Source: Terramyces sp. JEL0728 (lineage: Eukaryota; Chytridiomycota; Chytridiomycetes; Rhizophydiales; Terramycetaceae). From it: 14,081 bases of DNA. A model generated the notes under the pieces. The model did no database searches. It was not told where the DNA came from and worked only from the letters and a program-made list of their open reading frames with translations. The translations under genes and the position numbers were made by a program. Location: contig JADIIU010000211.1 in NCBI GenBank assembly GCA_027603945.1, forward strand, positions 1 through 14,081, read 5' to 3'. Below, piece after piece: positions 49 through 13,596 of the stretch (the first letter of the stretch is position 1; every line of letters starts with the position of its first letter).

Positions 49-1491
49 TTACAGTGCTACTGCAAGCTTGATATTTCCTTCCAATAATAACCTGATTTCT
101 TTCCTTGTTTGTTCACATAGAACTTTACTTTCTATAGTATTTTCAAACCCTAGAAACTGCAAATTGGATTCCTTTACTGCTTCCACAAATTCTAGTATCC
201 CCTCAGCTGTAAACTTGTTGTTGTTCAAAACCAGCTTTCTGATTTTTGTTGATTTCATAGCTGGGATAAAAGCATGCAGTGTATCGTCCTTCAAGTTAGA
301 ACCCATAATAGACAATGATTTTATGCTTGTTGTTTTCAAAAACGGGGTAATATTGTCGACTTGGCCAACCATGCCTGCAACAAAACACACATGTTTAATT
401 TTTGTATTTTTGATAGATGAAATGATTCGGACAACATCAAAGCAGCCTCCCAGGGAAAATGCTTTCGTTGACAGGACATTAATATACTTGCAGATCAAAT
501 CATCTCTATTGGTTCCGAATGGACTTCCGTGCAACTTGAATAATTCCAGTGGATTATCTTTTACACCTTTGAGCAATTGTTCCAGAATATTTGATGTACA
601 TTCTACCTCTAATCTCTTGAAATTTGAGTCTGCTAGTCGATCAAGTACAATTTGCAAAAGCTCTGGACGTGGAATAACAAGTTTCCTTGTTTCGAGTGTT
701 GCAATAGGCAAGTATCGATATAGAACTTGCAAGTGTTGATCGAATACCTGAAAATTAAATTGTATATTGTAATATCTGATGTTCGATCCTTTCATTGCCA
801 GAAAGAAGTCTTGAAGGTCTCTGGGTGATAAACGGTGGAATGGAAATCTAAAATCAGCAATGTTGGTTTGTGGTAATGTTTTGGTTAACGCTTGAATTGC
901 TGCACCTGAAAAATCACCTTTTGAAAGATCCAAAGTCGTTAACGATGAACCAGGCAGGACTCTGGCAAAGTTCAATACATCTTGATCTGTTAGATGGCAA
1001 AAGCACATTACCAGCGAGTTTAATTTTGTATCTCTTACAATTTCAGCCAACCTATTTATCATTACCTGGTCCATATCGTATAATACAGTGATTTCATCAA
1101 TACCCTGCAGATTCGCCAAATCATCAACTGAAGATTTTTGATCTATCCATAATTTACGTTTTTCTGTGGAAGGTAGAAATTGCGCTAGTTTATGGTAAAT
1201 TGAGGCATAAATCGACACTATGCGAAATCTAAATCCGCAACGTTGCATTTCTTGCAACTCTAGATAAAACTTTTGTAAATTTTCTGCTCTGAATTTAGTT
1301 GTTTCCGTAACATGCAAGTCGGGCCAAAACTTTGATTTTGTAGTGAAATGAAATACTCTGGCTATTGCTCGGAATGGAGATAGCAATTCGAAATAGAATT
1401 TGTTAACAAGTGCAAGATTAAGGATATCGTTGCCGGTTATATGATTTATTATTGCGTGGTGAATTTCAAGTGGGAACTTTTCCAAGTCCAT
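49..1491 (-). CDS. F-box/leucine-rich-repeat protein, copy 1 (480 aa)
   Basis: A single uninterrupted frame from ATG at 1491 to TAA at 49. Residues 4-45 look like an F-box: FPLEIHHAIINHI, then DILNLALVNKFYFELLSPFR. A family-specific linker follows, with FWPDL near residue 56 and CGFRFRIVSIY near 85-95, also seen in the neighbouring copies. Degenerate RNase-inhibitor-like leucine-rich repeats occupy roughly residues 130-465; the clearest are LTTLDLSKGDFS (about 184-195) and IRKLVLNNNKFTAEGILEF near the C-terminus. F-box proteins of this layout usually bind Skp1 through the F-box and recruit substrates to an SCF ubiquitin ligase through the LRRs; that role and the substrate are inferred here. 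It is the most downstream member of a minus-strand tandem array. No intron is needed. The family is clear; the precise function is unknown. Confidence 0.88.
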   Translation of the reverse strand: MDLEKFPLEIHHAIINHITGNDILNLALVNKFYFELLSPFRAIARVFHFTTKSKFWPDLHVTETTKFRAENLQKFYLELQEMQRCGFRFRIVSIYASIYHKLAQFLPSTEKRKLWIDQKSSVDDLANLQGIDEITVLYDMDQVMINRLAEIVRDTKLNSLVMCFCHLTDQDVLNFARVLPGSSLTTLDLSKGDFSGAAIQALTKTLPQTNIADFRFPFHRLSPRDLQDFFLAMKGSNIRYYNIQFNFQVFDQHLQVLYRYLPIATLETRKLVIPRPELLQIVLDRLADSNFKRLEVECTSNILEQLLKGVKDNPLELFKLHGSPFGTNRDDLICKYINVLSTKAFSLGGCFDVVRIISSIKNTKIKHVCFVAGMVGQVDNITPFLKTTSIKSLSIMGSNLKDDTLHAFIPAMKSTKIRKLVLNNNKFTAEGILEFVEAVKESNLQFLGFENTIESKVLCEQTRKEIRLLLEGNIKLAVAL

Positions 1492-1625
1492 TCAGATTCG
1501 GCAAGAAATAGCTGCAAATTGTGGTACTCATTTTTATGCAGCTGCGTTTGCCCAAGACTAATAGAACTAAATGACAAATATATTTCAGTGATTTCTTAGA
1601 TACTAGGCGATAGAAAATTCCAACG

Positions 1626-3185
1626 TTACATTATTTCTATACTATGTCTATCAACAATTTGCGGCATTGATGCACATACCTTTAGATGATGGTTTCCTTC
1701 CAAAATCATCCCAATTCTTTTAAACAGTCGCTTCTCCTTTCTGTACTGTCCTGGTGAAGACGGCAAAACCAATTTGCATAGTTTTGCTTTCTTTATCCCA
1801 TCCACAAACCCAAGGATTCCTTCCTCTGTAAAATTGTTATTTCCAGTCAAATCCAAAGTCCTTAATTTGGAGCAGTTAATGGCGGGGACCAGACATTCCA
1901 GAGCTGTATCATTCAATGTGGGTAAATTCAGAGATAGCGAAATCAAGTTGGAGGTGGGAAGCAAACGGGCAACCGTTGTTAAATCGAAATCAACTATCGA
2001 AATCACTGTTATCGAAAAACACTTGATGTTTGGATTTTCAGATATTTTTTGAAATAGCAGGGATAATTCACGAGTATCTATTTTTTTCAGCTGCAATGCC
2101 AGTTCATCCACAGTAAGATACTTGGAATGATTTGCCAATGAATGCACAAACTCTTCTGTATAATTTGCACTATAATTTAATGTCAACGATTCGAGGGTGG
2201 ATCCAATAGCAGACAAAAAACAAGACAGCATCAGGTGTGGAAGTGTAATTTTCAGAGTTTTCAAACGTGACTTTTTGAAATTATCCCCAACCGTTGTTGA
2301 AATTGAAATACTTTGTAGGTCTGAAATCAAGTAGCCTTGAACGTTCAATATCGCCACCTTTGAGTGTGCAATTGCTTTTGAGAGATTTTCCAGTCCAGTA
2401 TATGTAAATTGATTGTATTGCAAGTTCAAATAATTTAAATTGGACCCTCCCAATACATTCGCTATTCTTTCCAGTCCAATATCTGTGATATGATTATAAG
2501 ATAAATCCAAAAAAGCAATTTTACTTTTCCAAATCAGCTGAGAAATGACTGTCATTGAATCATCGTCCAGCTGGCAGCTTAATAAAGTAATCGATGAGAC
2601 TGATGATAGTTGGATATATTCTGCAAAAGCAGCAAGATTTTCAACTGGATGTTGTAAAAATCGAATGCGCGATATTTTGGTCTGTGCCAATATTTTCCAC
2701 ATCTTTAATCCATTGTAGAGAACATTATCGTATATGATTAGTGTTTTGAGTCTCGGCATATTTAAAAGATCGTAAAATCCATCACTTTCATTCACGATTA
2801 ACGTGTTTACATCAATAAGATCGCCAACTAACGCTGTAACTCCAGGGGTATCTTTAAATACAAGGTTCTTTGTTGGGGGCAAGTCATTTTTGAAGTCGCG
2901 ATAAGATATAGAATCCAGCATAATTACTTCAAACTGAAATGGGCAGCTTCGTAGCTTTTCAAGCTGAGCTGTCGATTCCAATTTCGTCCCATTCCTTGTA
3001 TATTCACTGATCTCTATATTTGGCCATATATTTGCTTGATTCTGATTTGTCAACAAATTCGATAGCATTCGAAATGGTTCCAACAAAGCATAAAAATACT
3101 TGTTTGTAAGTGAAAGAAATAGTAGATCTGCCCCGTCCAATCTAATTATGACTGCCTGGTGTAAATCAAAAGGAAGCTTGTCCAT
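1626..3185 (-). CDS. F-box/leucine-rich-repeat protein, copy 2 (519 aa)
   Basis: Open from ATG at 3185 to TAA at 1626. The N-terminal F-box-like segment (about residues 3-45) reads LPFDLHQAVIIRL, then LLFLSLTNKYFYALLEPFR. The linker has NIWPNIEISEYT at about 52-63 and CPFQFEVIML at about 81-90, matching the other copies. The cleanest RNase-inhibitor-type repeats are at about 222-275 (IAFLDLSYNHITDIGLERIA, then LNYLNLQYNQFTYTGLENL), with another pair near 425-485 (LRTLDLTGNNNFTEEGIL). It is probably an SCF-type substrate receptor (inferred). It ends with about 20 residues (VCASMPQIVDRHSIEIM) that the other copies lack; these stop soon after a residue matching their LKV or KLAV ends, so stop-codon drift is a plausible source. 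The gap to copy 1 is 134 nt and to copy 3 is 429 nt. Confidence 0.88.
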   Translation of the reverse strand: MDKLPFDLHQAVIIRLDGADLLFLSLTNKYFYALLEPFRMLSNLLTNQNQANIWPNIEISEYTRNGTKLESTAQLEKLRSCPFQFEVIMLDSISYRDFKNDLPPTKNLVFKDTPGVTALVGDLIDVNTLIVNESDGFYDLLNMPRLKTLIIYDNVLYNGLKMWKILAQTKISRIRFLQHPVENLAAFAEYIQLSSVSSITLLSCQLDDDSMTVISQLIWKSKIAFLDLSYNHITDIGLERIANVLGGSNLNYLNLQYNQFTYTGLENLSKAIAHSKVAILNVQGYLISDLQSISISTTVGDNFKKSRLKTLKITLPHLMLSCFLSAIGSTLESLTLNYSANYTEEFVHSLANHSKYLTVDELALQLKKIDTRELSLLFQKISENPNIKCFSITVISIVDFDLTTVARLLPTSNLISLSLNLPTLNDTALECLVPAINCSKLRTLDLTGNNNFTEEGILGFVDGIKKAKLCKLVLPSSPGQYRKEKRLFKRIGMILEGNHHLKVCASMPQIVDRHSIEIM

Positions 3186-3614
3186 TGCTTTGCATGCAGA
3201 TTACCCTTGAAAAATTTGGATTACTTTATAATTCTTTTTGGTCGTTCTTCAAGCCGGTTTTAATATTGCAGTACTTTACATGAAAGGGCTGCAATATCTA
3301 TCTCTATCGGTTAACTCGTAATTATCGATATGCCAACCACTTTGACATTGGTAAAATTCAAAAATAACAGTAATCTATTGACAAACTTCATAGTGTTGAT
3401 CCCGCGGGCAGGATACGCAGCTGATTACAATTCAACCACAAGCCTGCTTCTGGCCAGCATTTTCTCCAAATCAAGGTCTTGACAGGCGATTTGATTGTAA
3501 CTATACTAGCAGATCAAATACTTGCATAAACGAGATTCAGAATATTTGGAAATATGAATGGCATTTTATTGCTTGGTCGAGGAATGATATATACACCAAG
3601 GATACACTCCAGTC
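3186..3614. other. Intergenic region between F-box/LRR copies 2 and 3
   Basis: 429 nt holding the 3' end of copy 3 and the upstream region of copy 2. An AATAAA on the minus strand lies at 3565-3570, about 45 nt past the stop of copy 3. A 9-bp perfect inverted repeat (ATATTGCAG at 3263-3271, CTGCAATAT at 3289-3297) and a GC palindrome CCCGCGGG at 3401-3408 stand out in the AT-rich background. I see no credible gene. Confidence 0.6.
3263..3297. repeat. 9-bp inverted repeat upstream of F-box/LRR copy 2
   Basis: The arms 3263-3271 (ATATTGCAG) and 3289-3297 (CTGCAATAT) are exact inverse complements with a 17-nt spacer. They lie 78-112 nt upstream of the ATG at 3185. It could be a protein-binding site; a regulatory role is unproven. 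Confidence 0.4.
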
Positions 3615-5045
3615 TTATCCATAGATATTCAGGGATCGGTTATCTGTTTTGATATCCGCGGTTTTTCCGTCTATCAGAGATCCCTGCACATTGATAGTAT
3701 CCAAGCTGGAGTACTTGACACTGTCAGCAAAATTTTGGACACCTAGAATTGTAAAAGTATTTCGTGTAAAATCCAGGAACCGCATTCTAGCATCCTTGAT
3801 TCCTTTTTGGATATCAAAGAGAAATTCATCATCCAAGGTACAATTCCTTAGTGTAATGTACTCTAAATTAGTATGCACGAAATGGTTTCCTATTTGACCA
3901 TCAATTTGGCCAACTGACTTGCCATCAATGTGAATTTCGGTTAATTTACTTTCTTGCCCGATATTACTAAACAGGAGTAGAGATGCTGACTTGCTAATTG
4001 CGCAATTATCAAAATTGAGAGTCCGGATTGGAAGTTTATCAATATACTTTGATAAAATCGAGCAACTCTCATCATCAAATAACATATCATCTCCTCCTAA
4101 AGAAAGCGATTCCACTTTTGAAAAACACACAGCGTTCAAAATATCATCCATGAATGCTGGAAGAATGTCGACATCCATTTTTATAAGATTAGATTTGCTG
4201 ATAGCACCTGATAATGCACTCGCAATGATTTCAGTATCTATTGTACAATAAAGCTCTTGGATTTGAGTGTAGGCTAAATTCTCGTATAGTACATGATACT
4301 CCTCCATCTCAATTTCATTTGCGTCTATTGAAAAGTGTTGAATTTTTGAAAACTGTAGATTTGTAGCCAACTCTTGTAATCCAACAACTGTAACATCGTT
4401 ATAATTCAATTCTAGTTTGATCAAAGAGCTGCCTGGGATATAAATTGCGATTTCTTTTGCTGCATTATCCGTTAAATTGTTTCCGATAAGCGTCAATTCA
4501 GTAAGACACGTTTTCGATATCCCAGACAACACTTGGCTAACTGTCGAATCTCCTACTTCACACGAATATATATATAAACTGGAAATTTGCTTTAAATCTA
4601 CCATTTCAAGGACCTTTGAACAAGCTGGTTGGTTTTGGACAATTCTAAGCTGATCGACGAACGGTATACAAGAAAGACTATCCAAGTCAGCAGCAGTGGA
4701 ATGTTGGTTGATTTCCAGCAACACCGAGTCTGGTGGTGGAATTTTGAATGGCTGCTTTGAAAAGTCTGGCAAAATTACCCTTACAAATGTAAATTTAAAG
4801 ATCCAGTCAATAGAATTTAATTGCTGGATAACTGATTGGCGAATATTCTGTCTAATTGTATTATCGGACAACAGCAAATGTGGGAAACTTAGCCAGTGAT
4901 TGTGCAAACAGCATCCGAGTAATCTGAATTCTTGTAGAAAATTGTAAAAGTACTTGTTGGTCTGCGATAGGTACAGTATATTTGTTCCTCTGAGGGAATA
5001 AATAATCCTGATCAGAATATCAGTCGGAAGCGAACAAAGATTCAT
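3615..5045 (-). CDS. F-box/leucine-rich-repeat protein, copy 3 (476 aa)
   Basis: Open from ATG at 5045 to TAA at 3615. The F-box-like N-terminus (about 4-45) reads LPTDILIRIIYSL, then ILYLSQTNKYFYNFLQEFR. The usual linker IWP motif is replaced by LSFPHLLLSD, so this copy has diverged more in the linker. The repeats are clearest at about residues 178-255: LTELTLIGNNLTDNAAKEIA, LIKLELNYNDVTVVGLQELA, then a weaker unit with HFSIDANEIEMEEYHVLY. C-terminal repeats include LEYITLRNCTLDDEFLFDI and MRFLDFTRNTFTILGVQNF. Like its neighbours it is a candidate SCF substrate receptor. No intron is needed. The intergenic gap to copy 4 is 111 nt, and the four array members all face the same way, as expected from tandem duplication. 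Confidence 0.88.
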   Translation of the reverse strand: MNLCSLPTDILIRIIYSLRGTNILYLSQTNKYFYNFLQEFRLLGCCLHNHWLSFPHLLLSDNTIRQNIRQSVIQQLNSIDWIFKFTFVRVILPDFSKQPFKIPPPDSVLLEINQHSTAADLDSLSCIPFVDQLRIVQNQPACSKVLEMVDLKQISSLYIYSCEVGDSTVSQVLSGISKTCLTELTLIGNNLTDNAAKEIAIYIPGSSLIKLELNYNDVTVVGLQELATNLQFSKIQHFSIDANEIEMEEYHVLYENLAYTQIQELYCTIDTEIIASALSGAISKSNLIKMDVDILPAFMDDILNAVCFSKVESLSLGGDDMLFDDESCSILSKYIDKLPIRTLNFDNCAISKSASLLLFSNIGQESKLTEIHIDGKSVGQIDGQIGNHFVHTNLEYITLRNCTLDDEFLFDIQKGIKDARMRFLDFTRNTFTILGVQNFADSVKYSSLDTINVQGSLIDGKTADIKTDNRSLNIYG

Positions 5046-5156
5046 TTAAATTTTGTGGATTAAAATTGCATTTACTTTACAAACATTAAGATACCATCAA
5101 TATCTAAATTTATAATATATATTTTCATTCTAAAAAGTTGTGTGATCGTAGGATCT

Positions 5157-6511
5157 TTAGAGCTTGATTTCTTTTAATTTCGAACATTGGATAGCGGTAA
5201 TAAACTGTTCTTTTCCCAAGGTGGTGAATTCATTCCACAAAAGATCCAGCCTTTCTAGGCAACTTATCTTTACAGGTTCAATCATGTTGTAAAGGAACTC
5301 GTCCGTCAATTCACATCCCCATAAAGTTAAGGATTTCAAAGGGGATTTCCACAAGTAGCTTGAAATATCCGGAAGCGTATTGTAAGTGATCTTCAAGGAT
5401 CGAACATTGGATTTGTGCGTAATGCTTTGAAATACCTGCTCTGATATTTCTTTGGATATCACACAGTCGTACAGATTCAGTTCTCTGATTGGTAACCTCT
5501 CCACATATTTCACAAGAATTCTAGCACATTGATCGTCAAAGGCGGGCGATACATCCTCAAACCCGTCCAACTGTCCGTAGAATGAAAGAATTTGCAATTT
5601 ACTTTTTGTTACTGCATCCAACAGACTTTCCAAATACTCACATTTAATTTCTAGCTCGAGTTTAGTGAGATTTCCCAGGCTGTTGTTTAATGCTTCTGAA
5701 ATCACCAAAGTCATCACAACTGCGTGCAATTCTTTGATTTTGCTGTGACCCAGGCCTTCAAACAGTATAGTATATCCATCATTTTCAATACAGTTTTCAT
5801 ATATATTCAATTTTTGTAGTTTACAATTTGGTAGTTGCTTTACAATATATTTCAATCCTACGACGGATATTTTGTTCTGAAATAAATCCAGATGTATCAA
5901 ATTGCTTTTTGCTAGCATATTCGCAATCGCTATTGCTCCATCGTCTGTTATTCCGTTATTTGGTATAAGCAATATCGCAAGTGTTTCCATAGACAAATAC
6001 TCCACAAATTGAATTATCTGATCCCCCAAATTACATTTATCCAATGACAATTGCTCCAGTCGCAGCTGTCTAATATTTCGGAGTAAATCCATGTCAATCA
6101 GCGAGGTTTAAGATTAACGCTGGTGATCCTCTTGACATTGAATATCCGTTCAAAATCGCTATTCGGCAGTAACTTTCCTTCTATTGAAACTTGAGCAGCC
6201 CGTGGAATATTGTAATTTAATTTTTGACAGACCATTGGCGATATAATGATTTTATGAAAATTAAATCTGCAATCCGCTAGATTGTGCATAGTCGGAGAAG
6301 TGATTTCCCTTTTCAGTACAAACGCTGTCAATTGAAGTACTGGCCAGATATCCTTTCGGGATCCCACCATCATTAACGAGGATATCAGTCTGAATGGCGA
6401 GAGAAACTGGTAAAAGTGTCGGCTAGTCAGTGAGAGCCTGAGAACATCTATTCCTGAAATGTAATTTAGAATCAAATGGTGAATTTCAGCTGGCAACGAA
6501 TCTAATTTCAT
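5157..6511 (-). pseudogene. F-box/LRR copy 4, split by a frameshift
   Basis: Two adjoining minus-strand frames together make one family member of about 450 aa. The 5' part (6511 to 6098, 137 aa) has the F-box-like MKLDSLPAEIHHLILNYI, then LSLTSRHFYQFLSPFR, and the linker DIWPVLQLTA and CRFNFHKIII; it ends at TGA 6098-6100. The 3' part (to TAA at 5157) carries the LRRs, for example LRLEQLSLDKCNLGDQII and LIHLDLFQNKISVVGLKYIV. The frames overlap only between a TAA at 6108-6110 and that TGA, so a one-base loss (or an equivalent indel) must lie there. With it repaired, the spacing from FNVKRI to CNLGD is about 40 residues, against 41 and 42 in copies 3 and 5. I chose 6511 as start because it aligns with the other copies; an in-frame ATG at 6631 would add 40 unrelated hydrophobic residues. 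It is either a young pseudogene or an assembly error. Confidence 0.8.
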
Positions 6512-6627
6512 GAAAGCTGGTAATTTTGGTTGAAAAATAATTTTCGGTAAACAAAGCAAAAGTAACCAAAAGTAACTTGTTTGGAGATGCTTTTCATCTT
6601 TAAAATTATAAAAAGTTCGGCTAGGCG

Positions 6628-6888
6628 TCATTTGGATTTCTCCACTGTTCTGGCAAATCGATAGATTGCATCCTTTGTGAAATAGGGTTTCCCAGGTTAT
6701 AGCTTTTCTAACGACGAGCCATTTATCCCATCAACCAACCCGTCAAGTGATTCGTCATTCAAATTGAAGCAGTTCAAGGTTAACCATGAATGATTTGATG
6801 GTTTTGCAGTTTTGAAACTAAAAGTTGAATGAAATATCCAAGTATGAAAAAACCATAACCAAAAGGCAACAGTTTCCTCCAACAGCAT
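6628..6888 (-). pseudogene. Relic C-terminal fragment of another F-box/LRR gene
   Basis: The frame from about 6888 down contains WLTLNCFNLNDESLDGL and VDGINGSSLEKL, which match the penultimate repeat of the family (for example LNDTALECLVPAINCSKLRTL in copy 2). It meets TAA at 6697-6699, yet the same frame continues past the stop as PGKPYFTKDAIYRF, ARTVEKSK to a TGA at 6628-6630. That matches the next repeat of the family (NNKFTAEGILEFVEAVKES in copy 1). Upstream residues (KPSNHSW) still resemble LPTSNLIS of copy 2; beyond them I see no F-box or linker. So this is an old, 5'-truncated copy with an in-frame stop, lying directly upstream of copy 4. Confidence 0.7.
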
Positions 6889-6947: not shown

Positions 6948-8253
6948 CTAACAAGGCTCAGTAAAATTGGAAGGGAACAATCCGCGTCTTCGTATTCCAT
7001 TCTCATATCCCAATCCTACAGTTAATAAAAATCACCTTCCCACCATCCATCCTCGTTCTTTGCAAGCACCGGAATTACATCATCTTTTACAATACTCAGT
7101 TCTTCCTTTGCTTGCGATTCATAACTGTACAAACATCGCACGTTAAACAAGATTTTAATATGATCTGTATCGTAAGGATCGTATTGGAATGTAGAATCCA
7201 TACGGGAATCTTCTTGTTCTTGCCTGATAATCTCTTCAAGCTTTGGGACTTTGGTGAACTGGAATTGTGGGGTAGAGTTGTTTAGGCTTGCACCAGAGCT
7301 GATTTGTGACGACATTTCACTTGGCATTCGATTATGTTTCGGATATGAAGCAGGACGAGGAATTTCAGTGCCTGTTGCACACTCATCGATAAATAATTGA
7401 ATATCAAAATCCAAATTACATTTTTCTAAAGCTACACGAATGTTTTCACAAGACTGGTTAGCAAATAGTTACTTCATCGTTGGATACACACACGCTTGAC
7501 AAGAAATTGGTGTAATTCCACACAGTTCCTCTGATAAAGTGAAACCGGTCTTGTTCAAGTTTTTGAAAATCCACACACGCAGCTAAAAAGTCTTGCTGCC
7601 AGTTGCTATGGGTCTCTTCTAATTTTAAACACGATTGCTCGTAATCCTGATCGCAAAATACGACTGTTTGTTTTAGTTTGTCCAACTTGACTCGAAGCTA
7701 AAATTAGCTGGAATTACTTTTTCGTTCTGTGGTTGAGTCTTTGCCAGTTGCTGCATTTGTAAATACTCTGCGGATTTCTGCTCATATTTTTCCTTGTTTT
7801 TCGTTACCAAAGTCTCTTGACTGCTTTTTTGTTGAATATTGCGTTCGTTTATCCGTTGGTGATTCTTTCTGATACTCGTTTGACTAGCAACAAACTCAAC
7901 CATTGGCCGTTCCAGTTTGACTTTAAGGTCTGAAGCAAGATCCAAGTGAGCTCGCGCGGTTTTTTCCAGTTCAATTCGAATAACATCAAGAGATTCGCGC
8001 AAAGTGCTATATTAATTATTATTACCCTATTTCATCCTTTGGCGAAAAGTTTTTAGCTAGTTTTGCTAATCTCTTTCCGTATTCTTCCTCAATCGCCGAA
8101 CGTTCTTTTAGTAGGACAGTAATTTCCTCAGAGACATGTTTCGATCTTTTCATCCTTTGGAGAAGCGCATCCCTACGTTAGTGATATTTACCATCCCTTG
8201 TCATCGTGTCCCCAGAAAGAGTTTGCAAATGTTTTTTCAGACACCATTTCCAT
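6948..8253 (-). CDS. F-BAR and SH3 domain protein, six exons (402 aa), Cdc15/Imp2/PSTPIP type
   Basis: Exons on the minus strand: 8192-8253, 8026-8172, 7718-8006, 7473-7697, 7036-7453 and 6948-7015. They sum to 1209 nt (403 codons, TAG stop), with splice phases 2, 2, 0, 0 and 1 all consistent. The N-terminus KTFANSFWGHDDKGW, DALLQRMKRSK, then ERSAIEEEYGKRLAKLAK is the start of an F-BAR domain, and GTLRESLDVIRIELEKT continues it. The F-BAR end is SCENIRVALEKCN, then TGTEIPRPASY, as in the Cdc15/Imp2/PSTPIP group. A C-terminal SH3 domain (about residues 345-400) has CLYSYESQAKEELS, EDGWWEG and GLFPSNFTE. Such proteins bend membranes and scaffold the cytokinetic ring or actin patches, the SH3 binding proline-rich partners. 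At 402 aa it is far shorter than yeast Cdc15 because the middle linker is short. The assignment within the F-BAR group is inferred. Confidence 0.9.
7016..7035 (-). other. Intron 5 of the F-BAR/SH3 gene, 20 nt
   Basis: GTGATTTTTATTAACTGTAG, phase 1. It joins EDGWWEG to the segment ending RRRGLFPSNFTE and so completes the SH3 domain. Without it the frame stops five codons into the intron. Branch-like TTAAC ends 5 nt before the 3' end. Confidence 0.86.
7454..7472 (-). other. Intron 4 of the F-BAR/SH3 gene, 19 nt
   Basis: GTAACTATTTGCTAACCAG, phase 0. It joins CVSNDE to SCENIRVALEKC, the conserved last helix of the F-BAR domain. CTAAC ends 3 nt before the 3' end. Confidence 0.9.
7698..7717 (-). 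other. Intron 3 of the F-BAR/SH3 gene, 20 nt
   Basis: GTAATTCCAGCTAATTTTAG, phase 0. It joins QPQNEK to LRVKLDKLKQ, continuing the coiled-coil register. Branch-like CTAAT ends 5 nt before the 3' end. Confidence 0.87.
8007..8025 (-). other. Intron 2 of the F-BAR/SH3 gene, 19 nt
   Basis: GTAATAATAATTAATATAG. It splits a Gly codon (phase 2) and creates KDEIGTLRESLDV, a characteristic F-BAR segment. Branch-like TTAAT ends 4 nt before the 3' end. Confidence 0.88.
8173..8191 (-). other. Intron 1 of the F-BAR/SH3 gene, 19 nt
   Basis: GTAAATATCACTAACGTAG. It splits the TGG codon of KGW (phase 2) and joins HDDKG to DALLQRMK, the expected F-BAR N-terminus. Branch-like CTAAC ends 4 nt before the 3' end. 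Confidence 0.88.
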
Positions 8254-8543: not shown

Positions 8544-8853
8544 TCAGTCATTTCTAGCTCGCTCACATTGCCGCATAAAGTTACCTTTTAGGAGTTTCCA
8601 CATTGTGATATCACATCGTTTGAAGGCATCTAGTAGTCAGTCACAAAGAAATATTACTACTGCGAAGCTGAATCCTTCCTCGAAAGCAGGTTCATAATTA
8701 GAAGGCAAAGCTCAATATCAAGCCATGTTATTATCGAAAAGTGAATCACCATTGTAACCAGGATCAAGGAATTCGTTTACTCAAAGCGATTCTCCAATCA
8801 TTGGCGCAGAATTCCATGAGGAGCCGAGTTGGCCCTTTTAACTTTGACTTTTT

Positions 8854-10437
8854 ATGCAATTGCACAGTATTCCTCTGGATATTCAGCATGAAATTTATGA
8901 ATTCATTACAGGCGAGGATATTTTGTTTCTCTCACTGACAAACAAATATTTTTATTCGGCACTTGCTCCATTCCGACAGCTGTCAACAATGATGATAGCC
9001 AGTAAAAAATTCAGCGTCTGGCCGTCGATAGAAATATCAGATTGCTCATTAAAGGATTTTGACCAATGCAATTATGGCCACTTTGCTGCACTCAAGGATT
9101 CCTTCTCCGGATTTAGGTTTCACACAATTCAAACTTCTCCACTTGTGTATTCGAAATTAAAAGGGATTCTTCCATGCTCTAAAAGGATACAAATAGACGT
9201 TGAATTCGATACTAAAATGCAGGATTTTAATGAAATGTTTAATTATGGAAGAATTTCCTCAATCTGGATCAACGACACTCATGCAAGTCAAATATTCAAC
9301 AGCAACTTGACCAAATTTCAAAACATTCAGCAATTACAATTCCATGGCTGCTGTTTTGGAGATTACAAAATAATCAGTAAAATGTTGTCCGAGTATTCGA
9401 TACAGCAATTGGAAATTGTCAAAAATTTGGACTACAAGAGCATAGCACTAGAGAATGTTTTTTCAGTCCTTCACCAGACTGCGCTGGAAAAACTAGTACT
9501 GAAGAATTGTTTCCTTGCGGATGATATTTTGCTCAAATTAGCTAGAAATTTGCCAGACAGCAAAGTCAAATATCTCGATTTATCTTTTAATATGATCAGT
9601 GATATAGGAGCTATTGCTTTGGCAAATGTGCTTCCAAATAGCAAACTACAGCATTTGAATTTAAATGGAAACCAGATTTCGACTTTTGGAGTCAAGCATC
9701 TCTCGCTAGGATTGCCGCAATCTGATATTGAATTCTTTGATATTAATACAAACAGGTTTCGCCCGGATGATTGGCATTTGCTGTACGAGCAATTACCAAA
9801 ATGTAAAATTAGGACTCTAGCTGGAAGAATATACGGGCAAAAGTCCTTGGACGCAATGGCACTTGCTCTACCTAGATCGAAAATGAACACCTTGGAAATA
9901 GACATCCATGAAGAATATATTGAAAGGTTTCTCGAAGCCGTCTCATCATCTACTTTGGACAAGCTGACATTTATAGGCTATGCACCAGTTCAGGGGGCAG
10001 CTCTCCCTCGTTTAATTCCAGCTTTACCGGTTGAAACTTTGGAATTAATGTTTGCCAACTTGGGAAATGATTTGCCACTCTTGTTTGCCAACTTGAAATA
10101 CTCTAATTTGAAATACCTTCATATACGGGACTACTCTTTAGGAGATTTTGATTTCAGAAATACGAATTTAGGTAATCTGCAAAAGTTGACGTTTGGATTG
10201 AGTGAATTCCAAGAGGATTTCTTGGAAAAGTTTGGTAAAGTCGTCGTAAATTCTGAATTGAAGGAGTTGGAATTTGTCAGTAATAGATTCGGCAAAGTAA
10301 AAGTACTTCAATTTGTCAATGAAATCAAGAATTCCAATTTGCGGCATTTAAAGGTTGGAATTTCGGATTTGGATGTGAAAGAAGAGCTCAAACTCATACT
10401 TGGGGATTCCCAGCTAAAAGTAGTAATAAAGTTGTAA
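8854..10437 (+). CDS. F-box/leucine-rich-repeat protein, copy 5 (527 aa)
   Basis: Open from ATG at 8854 to TAA at 10435-10437. The F-box-like N-terminus (about 4-45) reads IPLDIQHEIYEFI, then ILFLSLTNKYFYSALAPFR. The linker has SVWPSIEISD (about 54-63) and SGFRFHTIQTSPLVYSKL (about 85-102). RNase-inhibitor-like repeats are clearest at about 209-320: LEKLVLKNCFLADDILLKLA, VKYLDLSFNMISDIGAIALA, LQHLNLNGNQISTFGVKHL. The C-terminus, SQLKVVIKL, aligns with NIKLAVAL of copy 1. It is the only plus-strand member, separated from the array by the F-BAR gene, so it was inverted or is the older copy. It is convergent with the repeat-protein gene downstream. The role as an SCF substrate receptor is inferred from architecture. 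Confidence 0.88.
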   Translation: MQLHSIPLDIQHEIYEFITGEDILFLSLTNKYFYSALAPFRQLSTMMIASKKFSVWPSIEISDCSLKDFDQCNYGHFAALKDSFSGFRFHTIQTSPLVYSKLKGILPCSKRIQIDVEFDTKMQDFNEMFNYGRISSIWINDTHASQIFNSNLTKFQNIQQLQFHGCCFGDYKIISKMLSEYSIQQLEIVKNLDYKSIALENVFSVLHQTALEKLVLKNCFLADDILLKLARNLPDSKVKYLDLSFNMISDIGAIALANVLPNSKLQHLNLNGNQISTFGVKHLSLGLPQSDIEFFDINTNRFRPDDWHLLYEQLPKCKIRTLAGRIYGQKSLDAMALALPRSKMNTLEIDIHEEYIERFLEAVSSSTLDKLTFIGYAPVQGAALPRLIPALPVETLELMFANLGNDLPLLFANLKYSNLKYLHIRDYSLGDFDFRNTNLGNLQKLTFGLSEFQEDFLEKFGKVVVNSELKELEFVSNRFGKVKVLQFVNEIKNSNLRHLKVGISDLDVKEELKLILGDSQLKVVIKL

Positions 10438-10541: not shown

Positions 10542-10547
10542 TTTATT
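10542..10547 (-). terminator. AATAAA polyadenylation-like signal overlapping the stop of repeat protein A
   Basis: AATAAA on the minus strand begins at the last A of the TAA stop codon. Confidence 0.4.
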
Positions 10548-11707
10548 TAATATTCAAAGTTAACAGTGACACTCCCTGCACTAGAATGCGCTTTTACGTA
10601 TCCAGGTCCAGGAAGAACGTCATTAGTTGGGGTAACCTTTTCGCCATTTCTTCTAATTATGGCTGAACCAACCGAAGCTTTACATTTATATGTACCATGG
10701 AAATCTTTGATGTTGGCAGTAACGCTTCCTGCAGACGAAACTAGCTTGGTATCTGATTTTTTGAGTGGCATCAAATCTGCTTTCACACTTCCAGCACTTG
10801 ATTTTATACTTGTATCATTGTATCCGGTAACTATCGCTTGCACCGAACCAGCAGATGTGTGGATGTCTGCTTCTCCTTTTGCGCCAGGGATGAAATCAAT
10901 ATGTGCTTTTATGGAACCTCCAGATGCTTTGATTTCAGCTTCATTTGTGACTTTGTACTCTGTACATTCAATTTCACCTGCTGAGCATTTTATTCGCACA
11001 TTATCTGCAGTAACGTTGTACGATTTAATTGTCCCACCAGATGATTTCAACACAATCTTTGAACTTGTTGAGTTGCTGAACGCGATTCCACCTGCAGATG
11101 AGTGAACTTCAATGTCGGTTGCATACATTTTGTCAATTCTAACGATGCCATAACTTGATTTGATATCTACATCTTGCAACAACGATGGACCTCCATTCCA
11201 AATCAACTCTCCACAGACTTTGAAATCAACATTGATTCTAAAGTGCGTTGGTATCCTTACAATAACTTGACCAGGCTTTCCCGAGAACCAGTTCACGAAT
11301 CGGCCTTTTGTTGTAATTTCCGCAACATACTTTCCTCGCTTAAGATCTTGACAATGGTTGATGATTGTTTTGGATTCAATTTTGTAGTCAATTTGAATAG
11401 CTTGGATTTCTTCAAAGAATACATGTACAGCTGCAAACTATAATTAGGCCGAGCTTACTGGTTGAACTACTAGTTTTAAAGTCTCGACCGATCCAGTAGA
11501 ATTGAGTGTCCCGGTATATTCTGTACTAGGCGCGGTTAGTCCAAAGAAATTGAATGAAGATCCCATTTCATTTCCCTTTGTACTAGTGCTAAAACTGGAG
11601 CCAATGTCGCCTTGTGGTGGAAATGGCTTCTTTTCCAGTTCGTCAACATCAACTATATTTTCAACAACGGCTTCGTAAGTTGGTAGCTGTTCGTCCTTAT
11701 TATCCAT
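10547..11707 (-). CDS. Adhesin-like (DUF4097-type) repeat protein A, two exons (379 aa)
   Basis: Exons 11459-11707 (83 codons) and 10547-11437 (297 codons with TAA), joined by a 21-nt phase-0 intron. The N-terminus, DEQLPTYEAVVENIVDVDEL, is charged and has no signal peptide, so the protein is probably cytosolic. LPTYEAV resembles the PPxY-like motifs bound by WW domains. A segment ending VETLKLVVQP then FAAVHVFFEEIQ leads into GQVIVRIPTHFRINVDF, the usual entry to DUF4097-type domains. About nine repeats of roughly 20 residues follow (SSAGGIAF, SSGGTIKS, SSAGSVKADL, SSAGSVTANI and a last SSAGSVTVNFEY), as in a right-handed beta-helix. Its function in fungi is unknown to me. It is a tandem paralog of the next gene upstream; exon 2 is exactly 891 nt in both. 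Confidence 0.85.
11438..11458 (-). other. Intron of repeat protein A, 21 nt
   Basis: It begins GTAAGC, has CTAAT starting 11 nt from the 5' end, and ends TATAG. Phase 0, after KLVVQP. It occupies the same codon position as the intron of paralog B. Confidence 0.88.
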
Positions 11708-12023
11708 TCGTTGTGTTAGCTGCAGGATTGTGCCATTTTATATCACTGCGGCGCAGTCGCCTAAATACTTTGAAATTATCCGAAATTTCTCCTTGTAATG
11801 TGCTGGCTCCAATTCAATAACAGGAGAGAAGAGGGCTGAAAGACAAACAGGAGCTCTTATTTTGGCGTCCTGTGGCCAACTCTTATTGGACATGACAATT
11901 AAATTTTGATTACGTGTTGACAAATTGAATTCAAATCTAGGCATGTAGCCTCTTCAGAGTTGCCTAAAGCATTGCGTTTATCATTCGAATTCTTAAATGT
12001 CGACTGTCTGAGAATGGTATTTA
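11708..12023. other. Intergenic region between the tandem repeat-protein genes
   Basis: 316 nt. Near the start of gene A it has the GC-rich box CTGCGCC (minus strand, 11750-11756) followed by GATATAAAA. It also contains a 68-codon minus-strand frame (11738-11944) with no recognisable features, treated here as chance. Nothing else supported. Confidence 0.5.
11750..11756 (-). promoter_or_regulatory. Shared CTGCGCC upstream box, gene A
   Basis: CTGCGCC on the minus strand, with its near edge 43 nt upstream of the ATG at 11707 and an A/T-rich TATA-like stretch just after it. The paralog has the same heptamer at almost the same distance. The role is inferred. Confidence 0.4.
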
Positions 12024-12025
12024 TT
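12020..12025 (-). terminator. AATAAA polyadenylation-like signal overlapping the stop of repeat protein B
   Basis: Minus-strand sequence TAATAAA: the stop codon at 12024-12026 overlaps the AATAAA hexamer by two bases. Confidence 0.4.
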
Positions 12026-13169
12026 AATATTCAAAGTTTAGAGTGACGCTACCAGCACTAGAGTTTGCTTTGACAGTCCCATTTCCAGGCAACACGTCAA
12101 AATCACGGGTAACCTTTTCTCCGTTTCTTCTTACTCGAGAGCTTCCTGCTGAAGTAGAACACTCATACGTTCCCATAAAGTTTTTAATATTGGCGGTAAC
12201 GCTTCCGGCAGATGAACTTAACTTGGAATGAGAGATTTCATGAGGTGCCAAATCTGCTTTGATACTTCCTGCGCTTGAATTGAGACTCAACTCTTTGTAC
12301 CCTGTAACAATAGCTTGAACGGAGCCAGCTGAAGTGTAGATATCAGCCTTGCCTTTTGAATTTTGGACAAAATCAATATGTGCTTTGATTGAACCTGCGG
12401 AGCTTTGGATATCTGCTACATTCGTAATTTTGTACTCTGTACATTCGATACCTCCAGCAGCGGAATCGATAAGTAAATCATCAGCGGTAACACTGTGAGT
12501 TTTAATTGATCCACCGGATGATTTCAAAATAATCTTTGAACTAGTTGCATTGCTGAATTTTATACCCCCTGCCATCGACTCAATTTCGATTGAGGAAGCG
12601 TACATGTTGTCAATAGAAATAGCACCAGCAAGTGAAATAATGTGTACATTTTGGAGTAGAGTTGTTCCACCATTCCAACTGACTTCCCCGCACAAATGGA
12701 AATCAATATTGAGGTTAAAGAAAGTCGGTATCCTAACAACAACTTGGCCAGTATTTCCAAAGAACCAATTAAACATTTTCCCCTTTGACGTAATTCGTGC
12801 TTCAAACGTAGTGCCGCTCATCTCACAATGATGAGTGATTACATTTTTCCACTGGATCTCGTATTCAATTTGAATTTCTTTAATATCTTCAAAATACACT
12901 TGGACCTTTGCATGCTAAAATTAGATTGGGATTACTGGCTCGACGACTAATTTGAAAGTTTCAACTATCCCGGTGGAATTTAGAGTCCCGGAGTATTCTG
13001 TAGCAGAACCCATTAGTCCAAAAAAGTTGAATGAGGATTTCTTGTCATTCTTGCTAGATTCAACTTGGTTCTTTGGAGGGGCTGGAAGAGGTTTCTTTTC
13101 CAATTCATCAACATCAACAATATTTTCAACAACGGCTTCGTAAGTTGGCAGTTCGTCTTTTTTGTCCAT
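12024..13169 (-). CDS. Adhesin-like (DUF4097-type) repeat protein B, two exons (374 aa)
   Basis: Exons 12936-13169 (78 codons) and 12024-12914 (297 codons with TAA), joined by a 21-nt phase-0 intron. I chose ATG 13169 because MDKKDELPTYEAVVEN aligns with the start of paralog A; an in-frame ATG at 13223 would add 18 residues. Exon 1 has a proline-lysine stretch (KPLPAPPK) and FNFFG shared with A. After the intron, HAKVQVYFEDIKEIQIEYEI leads into GQVVVRIPTFFNLNIDF and about nine adhesin-like repeats (SMAGGIKF, SSGGSIKTH, SSAGSIKAHI, TSAGSVQAIV, SSAGSIKADL, ending SSAGSVTLNFEY). No signal peptide or membrane segment. Most sequence change between A and B lies in the exon 1 linker; the repeats keep exact length. 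A soluble beta-helical scaffold is likely; the role is unknown. Confidence 0.86.
12915..12935 (-). other. Intron of repeat protein B, 21 nt
   Basis: It begins GTAATCCC, has CTAAT starting 11 nt from the 5' end, and ends TTTAG. Phase 0, after KLVVEP, at the same site as in paralog A. Confidence 0.88.
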
Positions 13170-13596
13170 TACTGCAGTTGGACTTTTAAAGTTGCTTAAA
13201 TATTTCCGTGGCGCAGGCGGCAAAACCTATACCCCACATATCCGAAACTTAACCGGTTGAATAATATAATGTGATTGACAAATAGATTAACGTTGTCCTG
13301 TCAAAATACCAACGGTGAGACAGATGGTTATCGGATCCTTCCAGTCTAAATTTCTGTGCGATAACAATTTTGACAACTATTTTGGAAAATTACCACGAGA
13401 AACCTACTAAACGACAAGAAATATAACTTGCCATCAAGCAAGGTTGGGCAGATCTGTTTTGCTCCGGAATATAGATTTTCAGTTAGGAAATAGAGTTTTA
13501 TGTGAAACAATCTTTTCACACAACATTCCCGGAGGCTTAGACGATAGCGGGTAAAGCAATACTATTAGGATGATGTCAAAGTAAAATCTTTCCTCA
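13170..13596. other. Divergent intergenic region between repeat protein B and the RTA1-like gene
   Basis: 427 nt expected to hold both promoters. Besides the CTGCGCC box at 13210-13216 I note only the palindrome AACCGGTT at 13251-13258. No credible open frame or RNA gene seen. Confidence 0.5.
13210..13216 (-). promoter_or_regulatory. Shared CTGCGCC upstream box, gene B
   Basis: CTGCGCC on the minus strand with its near edge 41 nt upstream of the ATG at 13169, followed by an A/T stretch (ATATTTAA). It matches the box of paralog A. Confidence 0.4.

Follow-up and report, generated by a model that had tools for sequence, protein, structure and literature searches.

What does it take to read a gene whose protein emerges only after five segments of 19 or 20 nt have been removed, and is such a gene alone in its genome? 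The question is raised by an F-BAR/SH3 gene (Cdc15/Imp2/PSTPIP-like; 6948..8253, minus strand) in the window, i.e. the whole stretch of 14,081 nucleotides analysed here, which is contig 211 of the Terramyces sp. JEL0728 assembly (15.0 Mb, 231 contigs). Terramyces is a chytrid genus (Terramycetaceae, Rhizophydiales, Chytridiomycota). An earlier note on this DNA had taken the segments for ultrashort spliceosomal introns, which we consider the right reading, with their removal from RNA inferred from sequence. More specifically, we estimate a probability of about 95% that they are U2-type spliceosomal introns of a genome-wide class of 19-22 nt, the predominant class in this species and the only one that our tests revealed. 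The finding exceeds the single gene of the earlier note, since it concerns a fungal genome in which, as far as tested, nearly all introns measure 19-22 nt, a size that ranks with the shortest recorded for any organism.

The gene was delimited from its spliced reading, Pfam matches, a structure match and a homolog alignment, and comprises six exons on the minus strand (8253-8192, 8172-8026, 8006-7718, 7697-7473, 7453-7036, and 7015-6948). Unspliced, all three frames are closed and none is open through the gene, whereas cutting out the five segments gives a single frame of 402 aa, from the ATG at 8253 to the TAG at 6948. The claim that the gene cannot be read as one protein without these removals therefore stands, and the segments of 19, 19, 20, 19, and 20 nt are all present exactly where they had been placed. 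Intron 1 (8173..8191, 19 nt, GTAAATATCACTAACGTAG) has its branch A at nt 14, followed by 5 nt, and its removal gives the junction KGW|DALLQRMK. Intron 2 (8007..8025, 19 nt, GTAATAATAATTAATATAG) shows the same spacing, A at nt 14 and then 5 nt, with the junction DEIG|TLRESLDV. In intron 3 (7698..7717, 20 nt, GTAATTCCAGCTAATTTTAG; junction QNEK|LRVKLDK) and intron 5 (7016..7035, 20 nt, GTGATTTTTATTAACTGTAG; junction WWEG|LGYENGIRRRGLFPSNF), the A at nt 14 is followed by 6 nt, and in intron 4 (7454..7472, 19 nt, GTAACTATTTGCTAACCAG; junction SNDE|SCENIRV) an A at nt 15 is followed by 4 nt. All five lie on the minus strand and share the form GTRA...YTAAY...AG.

The spliced product matches the Pfam families FCH (7.4e-19) and SH3_1 (1.9e-10), so that both the N-terminal F-BAR and the C-terminal SH3 of Cdc15/Imp2/PSTPIP proteins are present. 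Among solved structures, those closest to it in sequence are the F-BAR domains of Imp2 from S. pombe, of PSTPIP1, and of Cdc15; the match to S. pombe Imp2 (PDB 5c1f) covers residues 6-280 (8.5e-48). The 402-aa product is identical, letter for letter, to GenBank HDV01_003203 (P0001) of Terramyces sp. JEL0728, which means that the public gene model already includes the five introns; the GenBank model of this gene with these introns is thus prior knowledge.

An alignment with Cdc15-type homologs, proposed in the earlier note, was run with nine chytrid proteins (gene models), and no insertion in Terramyces is needed at any of the five junctions, which are continuous with the relatives. Distant chytrid proteins (e.g. 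P0007, P0008, P0012, P0013) show 41-49% identity over 98-100% of the spliced product. The removals had been said to rebuild conserved stretches, and indeed the Pfam, Imp2, and chytrid matches all run on across the junctions. Two Boothiomyces models (P0002 and P0003), 94 and 93% identical to the product, terminate after WWEGE, i.e. at junction 5. One of them begins only in exon 2, the other skips the exon flanked by junctions 3 and 4, and part of exon 3 is missing from both. These breaks may reflect the same tiny introns mishandled by gene prediction, the models stopping at what appears to be an unspliced 5' splice site. Two F-BAR proteins ending at an apparent donor suggest, in turn, that public gene models of related chytrids are faulty.

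We searched the whole window on both strands for further segments of 19-22 nt by a strict test that combines frame joining with a branch motif. With frames of 20 codons, eight segments are found, namely the five F-BAR introns, 11438-11458, 12915-12935, and 9045-9063, the last being antisense to an LRR gene; with 40 codons, five segments remain, all among the five F-BAR introns and the two that fall in DUF4097 genes. A looser scan had given 68 segments of 15-25 nt, most of them chance matches, and the stricter frame and branch test was used to choose among them. The window carries tandem paralogs with a DUF4097 (toastrack) domain at 10547-11737 and 12024-13226 on the minus strand, with one 21-nt intron each. 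The first intron (11438..11458, minus strand, GTAAGCTCGGCCTAATTATAG) joins frames of 93 and 296 codons and the second (12915..12935, minus strand, GTAATCCCAATCTAATTTTAG) frames of 97 and 296 codons, both in phase 0 and both, by reading, with an in-frame TAA inside. They occupy the same place in the two paralogs and differ at 6 of 21 bases, none of which lies in the donor GTAA, the branch CTAAT, or the TAG, and in both 6 nt follow the branch A. The F-BAR gene itself is flanked on both sides by about five F-box/LRR-like genes (49-6730, minus strand, and 8848-10437, plus strand), a run which looks like a local gene family expansion. LRR matches were obtained in the three long flanking frames that were scanned, one of them below the cut-off, and the F-box start of these genes is presumed from the look of the motif.

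The length spectrum was determined from DNA alone, with no annotation, in bases 1-200000 of contig 1, a single stretch that makes up 1.3% of the assembly. The motif pattern GTA[AT]...[CT]TAA[CT].{0,8}[CT]AG, applied at lengths of 12-70 nt, gives 36, 39, 19, and 7 matches at 19, 20, 21, and 22 nt, respectively, against 1-8 (about 4) at each other length. When the donor, the acceptor, or the branch was scrambled as a control, 1-8 matches were left at these four lengths; the largest count in any of the three controls is 16, from the scrambled branch at 17 nt. A similar pattern gave 105 motif-bearing candidates of 19-22 nt, and 97 of them have frames of 20 codons or more open on either side, vs 83 of 188 random GT sites; at 40 codons or more the figures are 75/105 vs 17/188. 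Segments of 12-18 nt under this pattern reach 21/37 and 7/37 for the two thresholds, and those of 23-70 nt reach 80/193 and 26/193.

The reverse order of filters leads to the same lengths. In this frame-first test, GT..AG pairs of 13-160 nt were retained if they connected two frames that each stay open for 40 codons or more, with read-through closed from either side, and only afterwards was YTRAY required 1-5 nt before the AG. This yields 41, 71, 24, and 19 segments at 19, 20, 21, and 22 nt, with z values of 19, 26, 11, and 8, over background means of 4.4-5.8 by length class; the next highest count is 11, at 53 nt. No motif excess occurs at 13-18 nt, nor at any length from 23 to 160 nt, and the length histogram that the earlier note had called for, as run here over 200 kb and 13-160 nt, accordingly peaks at 19-22 nt. 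Without the branch filter, z is 5.9 at 20 nt, 3.2 at 19, 2.0 at 22, and 0.3 at 21, as measured against the full-range background. The excess of filtered segments at 19-22 nt amounts to about 136 per 200 kb; if contig 1 is representative, this extrapolates to about 10,000 introns in 15 Mb.

We also ran a free-length gene finder that uses only codon statistics and GT/AG, at four penalties and with TG-GA decoys. At 19-22 nt it returns 21-39 GT-AG introns, depending on the penalty, vs 7-11 decoys; GT-AG introns of 24-100 nt do not outnumber the decoys in any bin, and those of 101-300 nt are about as frequent as the decoys. At 10-18 nt there are 7-10 GT-AG introns vs 2-4 decoys, inseparable from misplaced boundaries, so that the lower edge of the class is not clean. 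This program replaced a first Viterbi gene finder with a whole-sequence background, which discriminated weakly (13 of 53 GT-AG introns at 19-22 nt vs 4 of 51 decoys).

At the scale of the 15-Mb genome, the pattern GTAAGTN{1,28}CTAACN{1,4}AG, whose possible lengths are 15-45 nt, has 70 matches, 56 of which measure 19-22 nt (19 at 19, 26 at 20, 7 at 21, and 4 at 22), while the other 14 are spread over ten-odd lengths; some of the matches are copies on other contigs. A longer-range scan for GTAAGT..CTAAC..AG at 43-75 nt finds 29 matches of 46-73 nt, with no cluster except copies of one 71-nt sequence, and one of these matches starts with an apparent 19-nt intron. The same pattern read backward is commoner in total (133 vs 70 at 15-45 nt and 151 vs 29 in the longer range), so only the clustering of lengths, and not the totals, counts as evidence. 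Intron lengths are therefore narrowly distributed, at or below about 25 nt and with no longer class, in the 200 kb up to 160 nt and, genome-wide, for one donor/branch combination.

The splice signals of this class were described from the 155 segments of 19-22 nt that pass both the frame test and the motif filter. Chance would account for about 20 of them, and the filter allowed 4-8 nt after the A. The branch A lies at nt 14 in 73 and at nt 15 in 60 (together 133/155), and is followed by 5 nt in 62 and by 6 nt in 68 (together 130/155); the F-BAR introns have 5-6 nt after the A in four of five cases and 4 nt in intron 4. Branch motifs are TTAAT (51), TTAAC (30), CTAAT (26), CTAAC (14), and YTGAY forms (34), and acceptors are TAG (93), CAG (34), AAG (26), and GAG (2). 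Between donor and branch, T makes up 43% of the bases vs about 30% in the sample. Two features of U2-type introns are thus found: GT-AG (or GC-AG) ends whose removal restores the frame, and a branch motif complementary to the GUAGUA of U2 at a functional distance, YTRAY being enriched only at 19-22 nt within the range of 13-160 nt.

Conserved genes provide a further view of the junctions. Gene models of the 200 kb, in which an intron had to measure 17-23 nt and carry a branch motif, comprise 101 genes; 30 of these are intron-bearing, with 46 introns in all. The neighbourhoods of 20 of the 46 junctions, chosen for recognised proteins, were compared with Pfam, and 16 of the 20 lie inside a domain match: eIF-3c_N (two), PCI, GTP_EFTU (two), DEAD (two), Helicase_C, Peptidase_M16_M, AMP-binding, Carboxyl_trans, Asp, Peptidase_M14, ADH_N, KH_1, and Pkinase. 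Of the other four, the one in DNA polymerase lambda sits at the edge of a domain, and the remaining three are outside or without a Pfam match. Two apparent 17-nt introns in these models are better read as 20 nt, the one in eIF3c because its acceptor is TAGTAG and a 20-nt cut recovers NN|EYDKL, the second because of an upstream GTAG donor. The 19-22-nt class is directly visible in its sequence anatomy, its length spectrum, the rescue of reading frames, and the continuity of conserved domains.

Some genes occur in near-identical second copies, on other contigs or on the same one, which are either separate haplotypes or recent duplications; identical intron pairs are seen on contigs 44, 55, 115, and 184. 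Aligned as far as the stop codon (762 columns), the copies on contigs 199 and 111 show five substitutions and one indel. This sole indel is a single base inside an intron (21 vs 20 nt), and the copies have the same protein end only when the whole intron is removed. Soon 3' of the stop codon there are indels of 1, 2, and 9 bases.

Regarding the machinery, a canonical U2 snRNA was found (140 bits) with its branch-recognition sequence GUAGUA intact, and Slu7, Prp8, and Prp18 are encoded, each scoring over the family cut-off. A U2-type spliceosome is therefore represented by its U2 snRNA, Prp8, and step-2 factors. A U2AF-large-like gene reaches 251.7 bits when scored exon by exon and so falls short of the family cut-off (310.3); its frames are joined by segments of 20, 19, and 19 nt. 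Prp18 contains a GC-AG intron of exactly 20 nt (L045, 1790-1809) whose removal gives GVDSVGIHER; the same stretch was considered as a 24-nt GT-AG intron, but it reads better as the 20-nt GC-AG intron. Thus, splicing-factor genes carry such introns themselves. The PROCN domain of Prp8 lies within an uninterrupted frame of 1409 codons and hence provides no intron sample. U1 and U6 snRNA were not found in the whole genome by Rfam models, a pattern, and a consensus search, and since these searches had no positive control, divergence, interruption by introns, or an assembly gap may explain the non-detection. Matches to U6 at 27 bits proved to be coding sequence with 21-nt and 20-nt introns.

We propose that a standard spliceosome would remove these segments from the pre-mRNA by intron definition, in ordinary two-step splicing. 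Three signals are closely packed in each intron: a donor that is usually GTA, a YTRAY branch with its A usually at nt 14 or 15, and an AG usually ending 5-6 nt later. The U2 snRNA GUAGUA would pair with the branch motif, and the intron would be just long enough for a donor duplex at about 1-6 and a branch duplex at about 9-15, the AG close behind the branch then serving as acceptor. The needs of the two duplexes might set the floor on length, while selection or deletion bias might prevent growth. There is no space for a polypyrimidine tract 3' of the branch, so U2AF, if bound, might use the U-rich upstream stretch, or another factor might take its place. In humans, SPF45/RBM17, Smu1, and RED are associated with the splicing of short introns. 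SPF45/RBM17 has been reported to substitute for U2AF on short human introns (cited in PMC11913375).

Could the 19-22-nt class, however large, coexist with ordinary fungal introns of 50-100 nt in appreciable number? We consider such a mixed population unlikely. It gains some room from the detailed sample, which covers 200 kb, the YTRAY branch motif, and lengths up to 160 nt, and from the 29 whole-genome matches at 46-73 nt, which are pattern matches taken without a reading-frame filter. Nevertheless, these matches are scattered over their range and clustered only as copies of one 71-nt sequence, the frame-first test has no motif-bearing excess at any length from 23 to 160 nt, and the gene finder sees GT-AG introns no more often than decoys at 24-100 nt.

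The remaining explanations deny that the segments are introns. That they are indel errors or short spurious insertions in a draft assembly of 231 contigs is scarcely credible: GT, YTRAY, and AG are common to the segments at near-fixed spacing, segments of 19-22 nt recur across the genome, the two DUF4097 paralogs keep an intron at the same place with diverged sequence, and the Boothiomyces gene models break off at the same junction. The earlier note had already judged sequencing error very unlikely, and the shared splice and branch signals, together with the genome-wide recurrence, lead us to the same judgement. Elimination at the DNA level, as with the IES of ciliates, or bypass in translation appears very improbable, given the GT-AG ends, the branch motif complementary to U2, and the presence of spliceosomal genes; as for elimination, the segments are still in the assembled DNA. 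Equally hard to sustain is a decaying gene family in which the gaps are pseudogene frameshifts, as the spliced product is intact, with its similarity to distant chytrid proteins extending over 98-100% of its length, and the same type of gap occurs in eIF3c, IF2, Prp18, and U2AF-like genes. Spliceosomal introns of 19-22 nt thus remain the preferred reading. RNA-seq mappers with a minimum intron length of at least 20 nt would miss 19-nt junctions.

If all introns of this genome are of this size, they would mark the geometric minimum for a spliceosome that recognises a conserved branch motif, and would show that introns can be compressed to an extreme without loss of the second-step factors Slu7 and Prp18. 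Terramyces would be a test case for the smallest intron that the splicing machinery can process, one that belongs to the same kingdom as the yeasts from which spliceosome structures were obtained, and the minimal donor-branch-acceptor geometry would be directly testable. We think it rather likely that Terramyces, which we take to be free-living, and probably Boothiomyces as well, is the first fungus known to have narrowed all its spliceosomal introns, perhaps ten thousand in number, to 19-22 nt. The branch A would stand 13-14 nt from the first base of the intron, at a distance of 5-6 nt from its end, even though Slu7 and Prp18 are retained. The earlier note knew of no fungus described in this way, and we find no report of a fungal 19-22-nt class among the open-access matches listed, a weak absence given that preprints and most subscription papers lie outside them. 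A survey of 644 fungal genomes gives example means from 63 nt (Cryptococcus) to more than 400 nt, and none near 20 nt is mentioned in the available part of that paper (PMC8476143); the available part of a chytrid genome paper gives intron counts without lengths (PMC5364385). Cryptococcus neoformans has been called rich in ultra-short introns, but there the term means less than 60 nt, with an average of 56 nt, and its introns below 40 nt are few and poorly spliced, according to excerpts of PMC11913375.

Outside the fungi, introns measure 18-21 nt in chlorarachniophyte nucleomorphs, 15-16 nt in heterotrich ciliates, and 16-17 nt in mikrocytids (PMC10245619), and the comparison of the earlier note with the Bigelowiella nucleomorph and some ciliates is apt (18-21 nt; 15-16 nt in Stentor and about 25 nt in Paramecium). 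The Bigelowiella natans nucleomorph resembles Terramyces in its narrow range of 18-21 nt (PMC10245619), but it is a relic endosymbiont nucleus with a donor cut to GT(A) and, in the passages available, no branch-point signature (PMC2483917), whereas Terramyces has a clear branch motif in a fungal nuclear genome of 15 Mb. Paramecium has only ultrashort introns, like Terramyces as far as tested, at about 25 nt (PMC5014332) and in numbers above 90,000 per genome (PMC10245619), and differs in that length and in its branch signature, absent there and in the nucleomorph according to the available text of a 2008 survey (PMC2483917). The weak or absent branch motif of the nucleomorph and Paramecium type is thus not what Terramyces shows.

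Stentor coeruleus has tiny introns genome-wide, as Terramyces does, with the branch A at position 10 of 15 (PMC9505925), hence the 5-nt 3' spacing that is common in Terramyces. Unlike in Terramyces, its introns measure 15-16 nt and lack a strong consensus at the branch. The same source, in the portion at hand, records both Slu7 and Prp18 as undetected in Stentor (PMC9505925); both are found in Terramyces, which departs from the Stentor type in this respect. Mikrocytos mackini and Paramikrocytos share the extremely narrow size range and conserved sequence (PMC10245619), but at 16-17 nt, with 224 introns in M. mackini, a reduced spliceosome, and the life of an intracellular parasite, vs about ten thousand introns in Terramyces, as extrapolated from 200 kb. 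Yarrowia lipolytica and Trichomonas vaginalis have, like Terramyces, a locked branch-to-AG distance and no 3' polypyrimidine tract, as described in passages of PMC2483917; unlike Terramyces, they are intron-poor species with a strong branch consensus and longer introns, many of about 25 nt in Trichomonas and rather long ones in Yarrowia. Genomes with only ultrashort introns are so far known from a relic nucleus, from ciliates, and from a reduced rhizarian parasite, to which a fungus that has clear branch motifs as well as Slu7 and Prp18 would add an independent origin.
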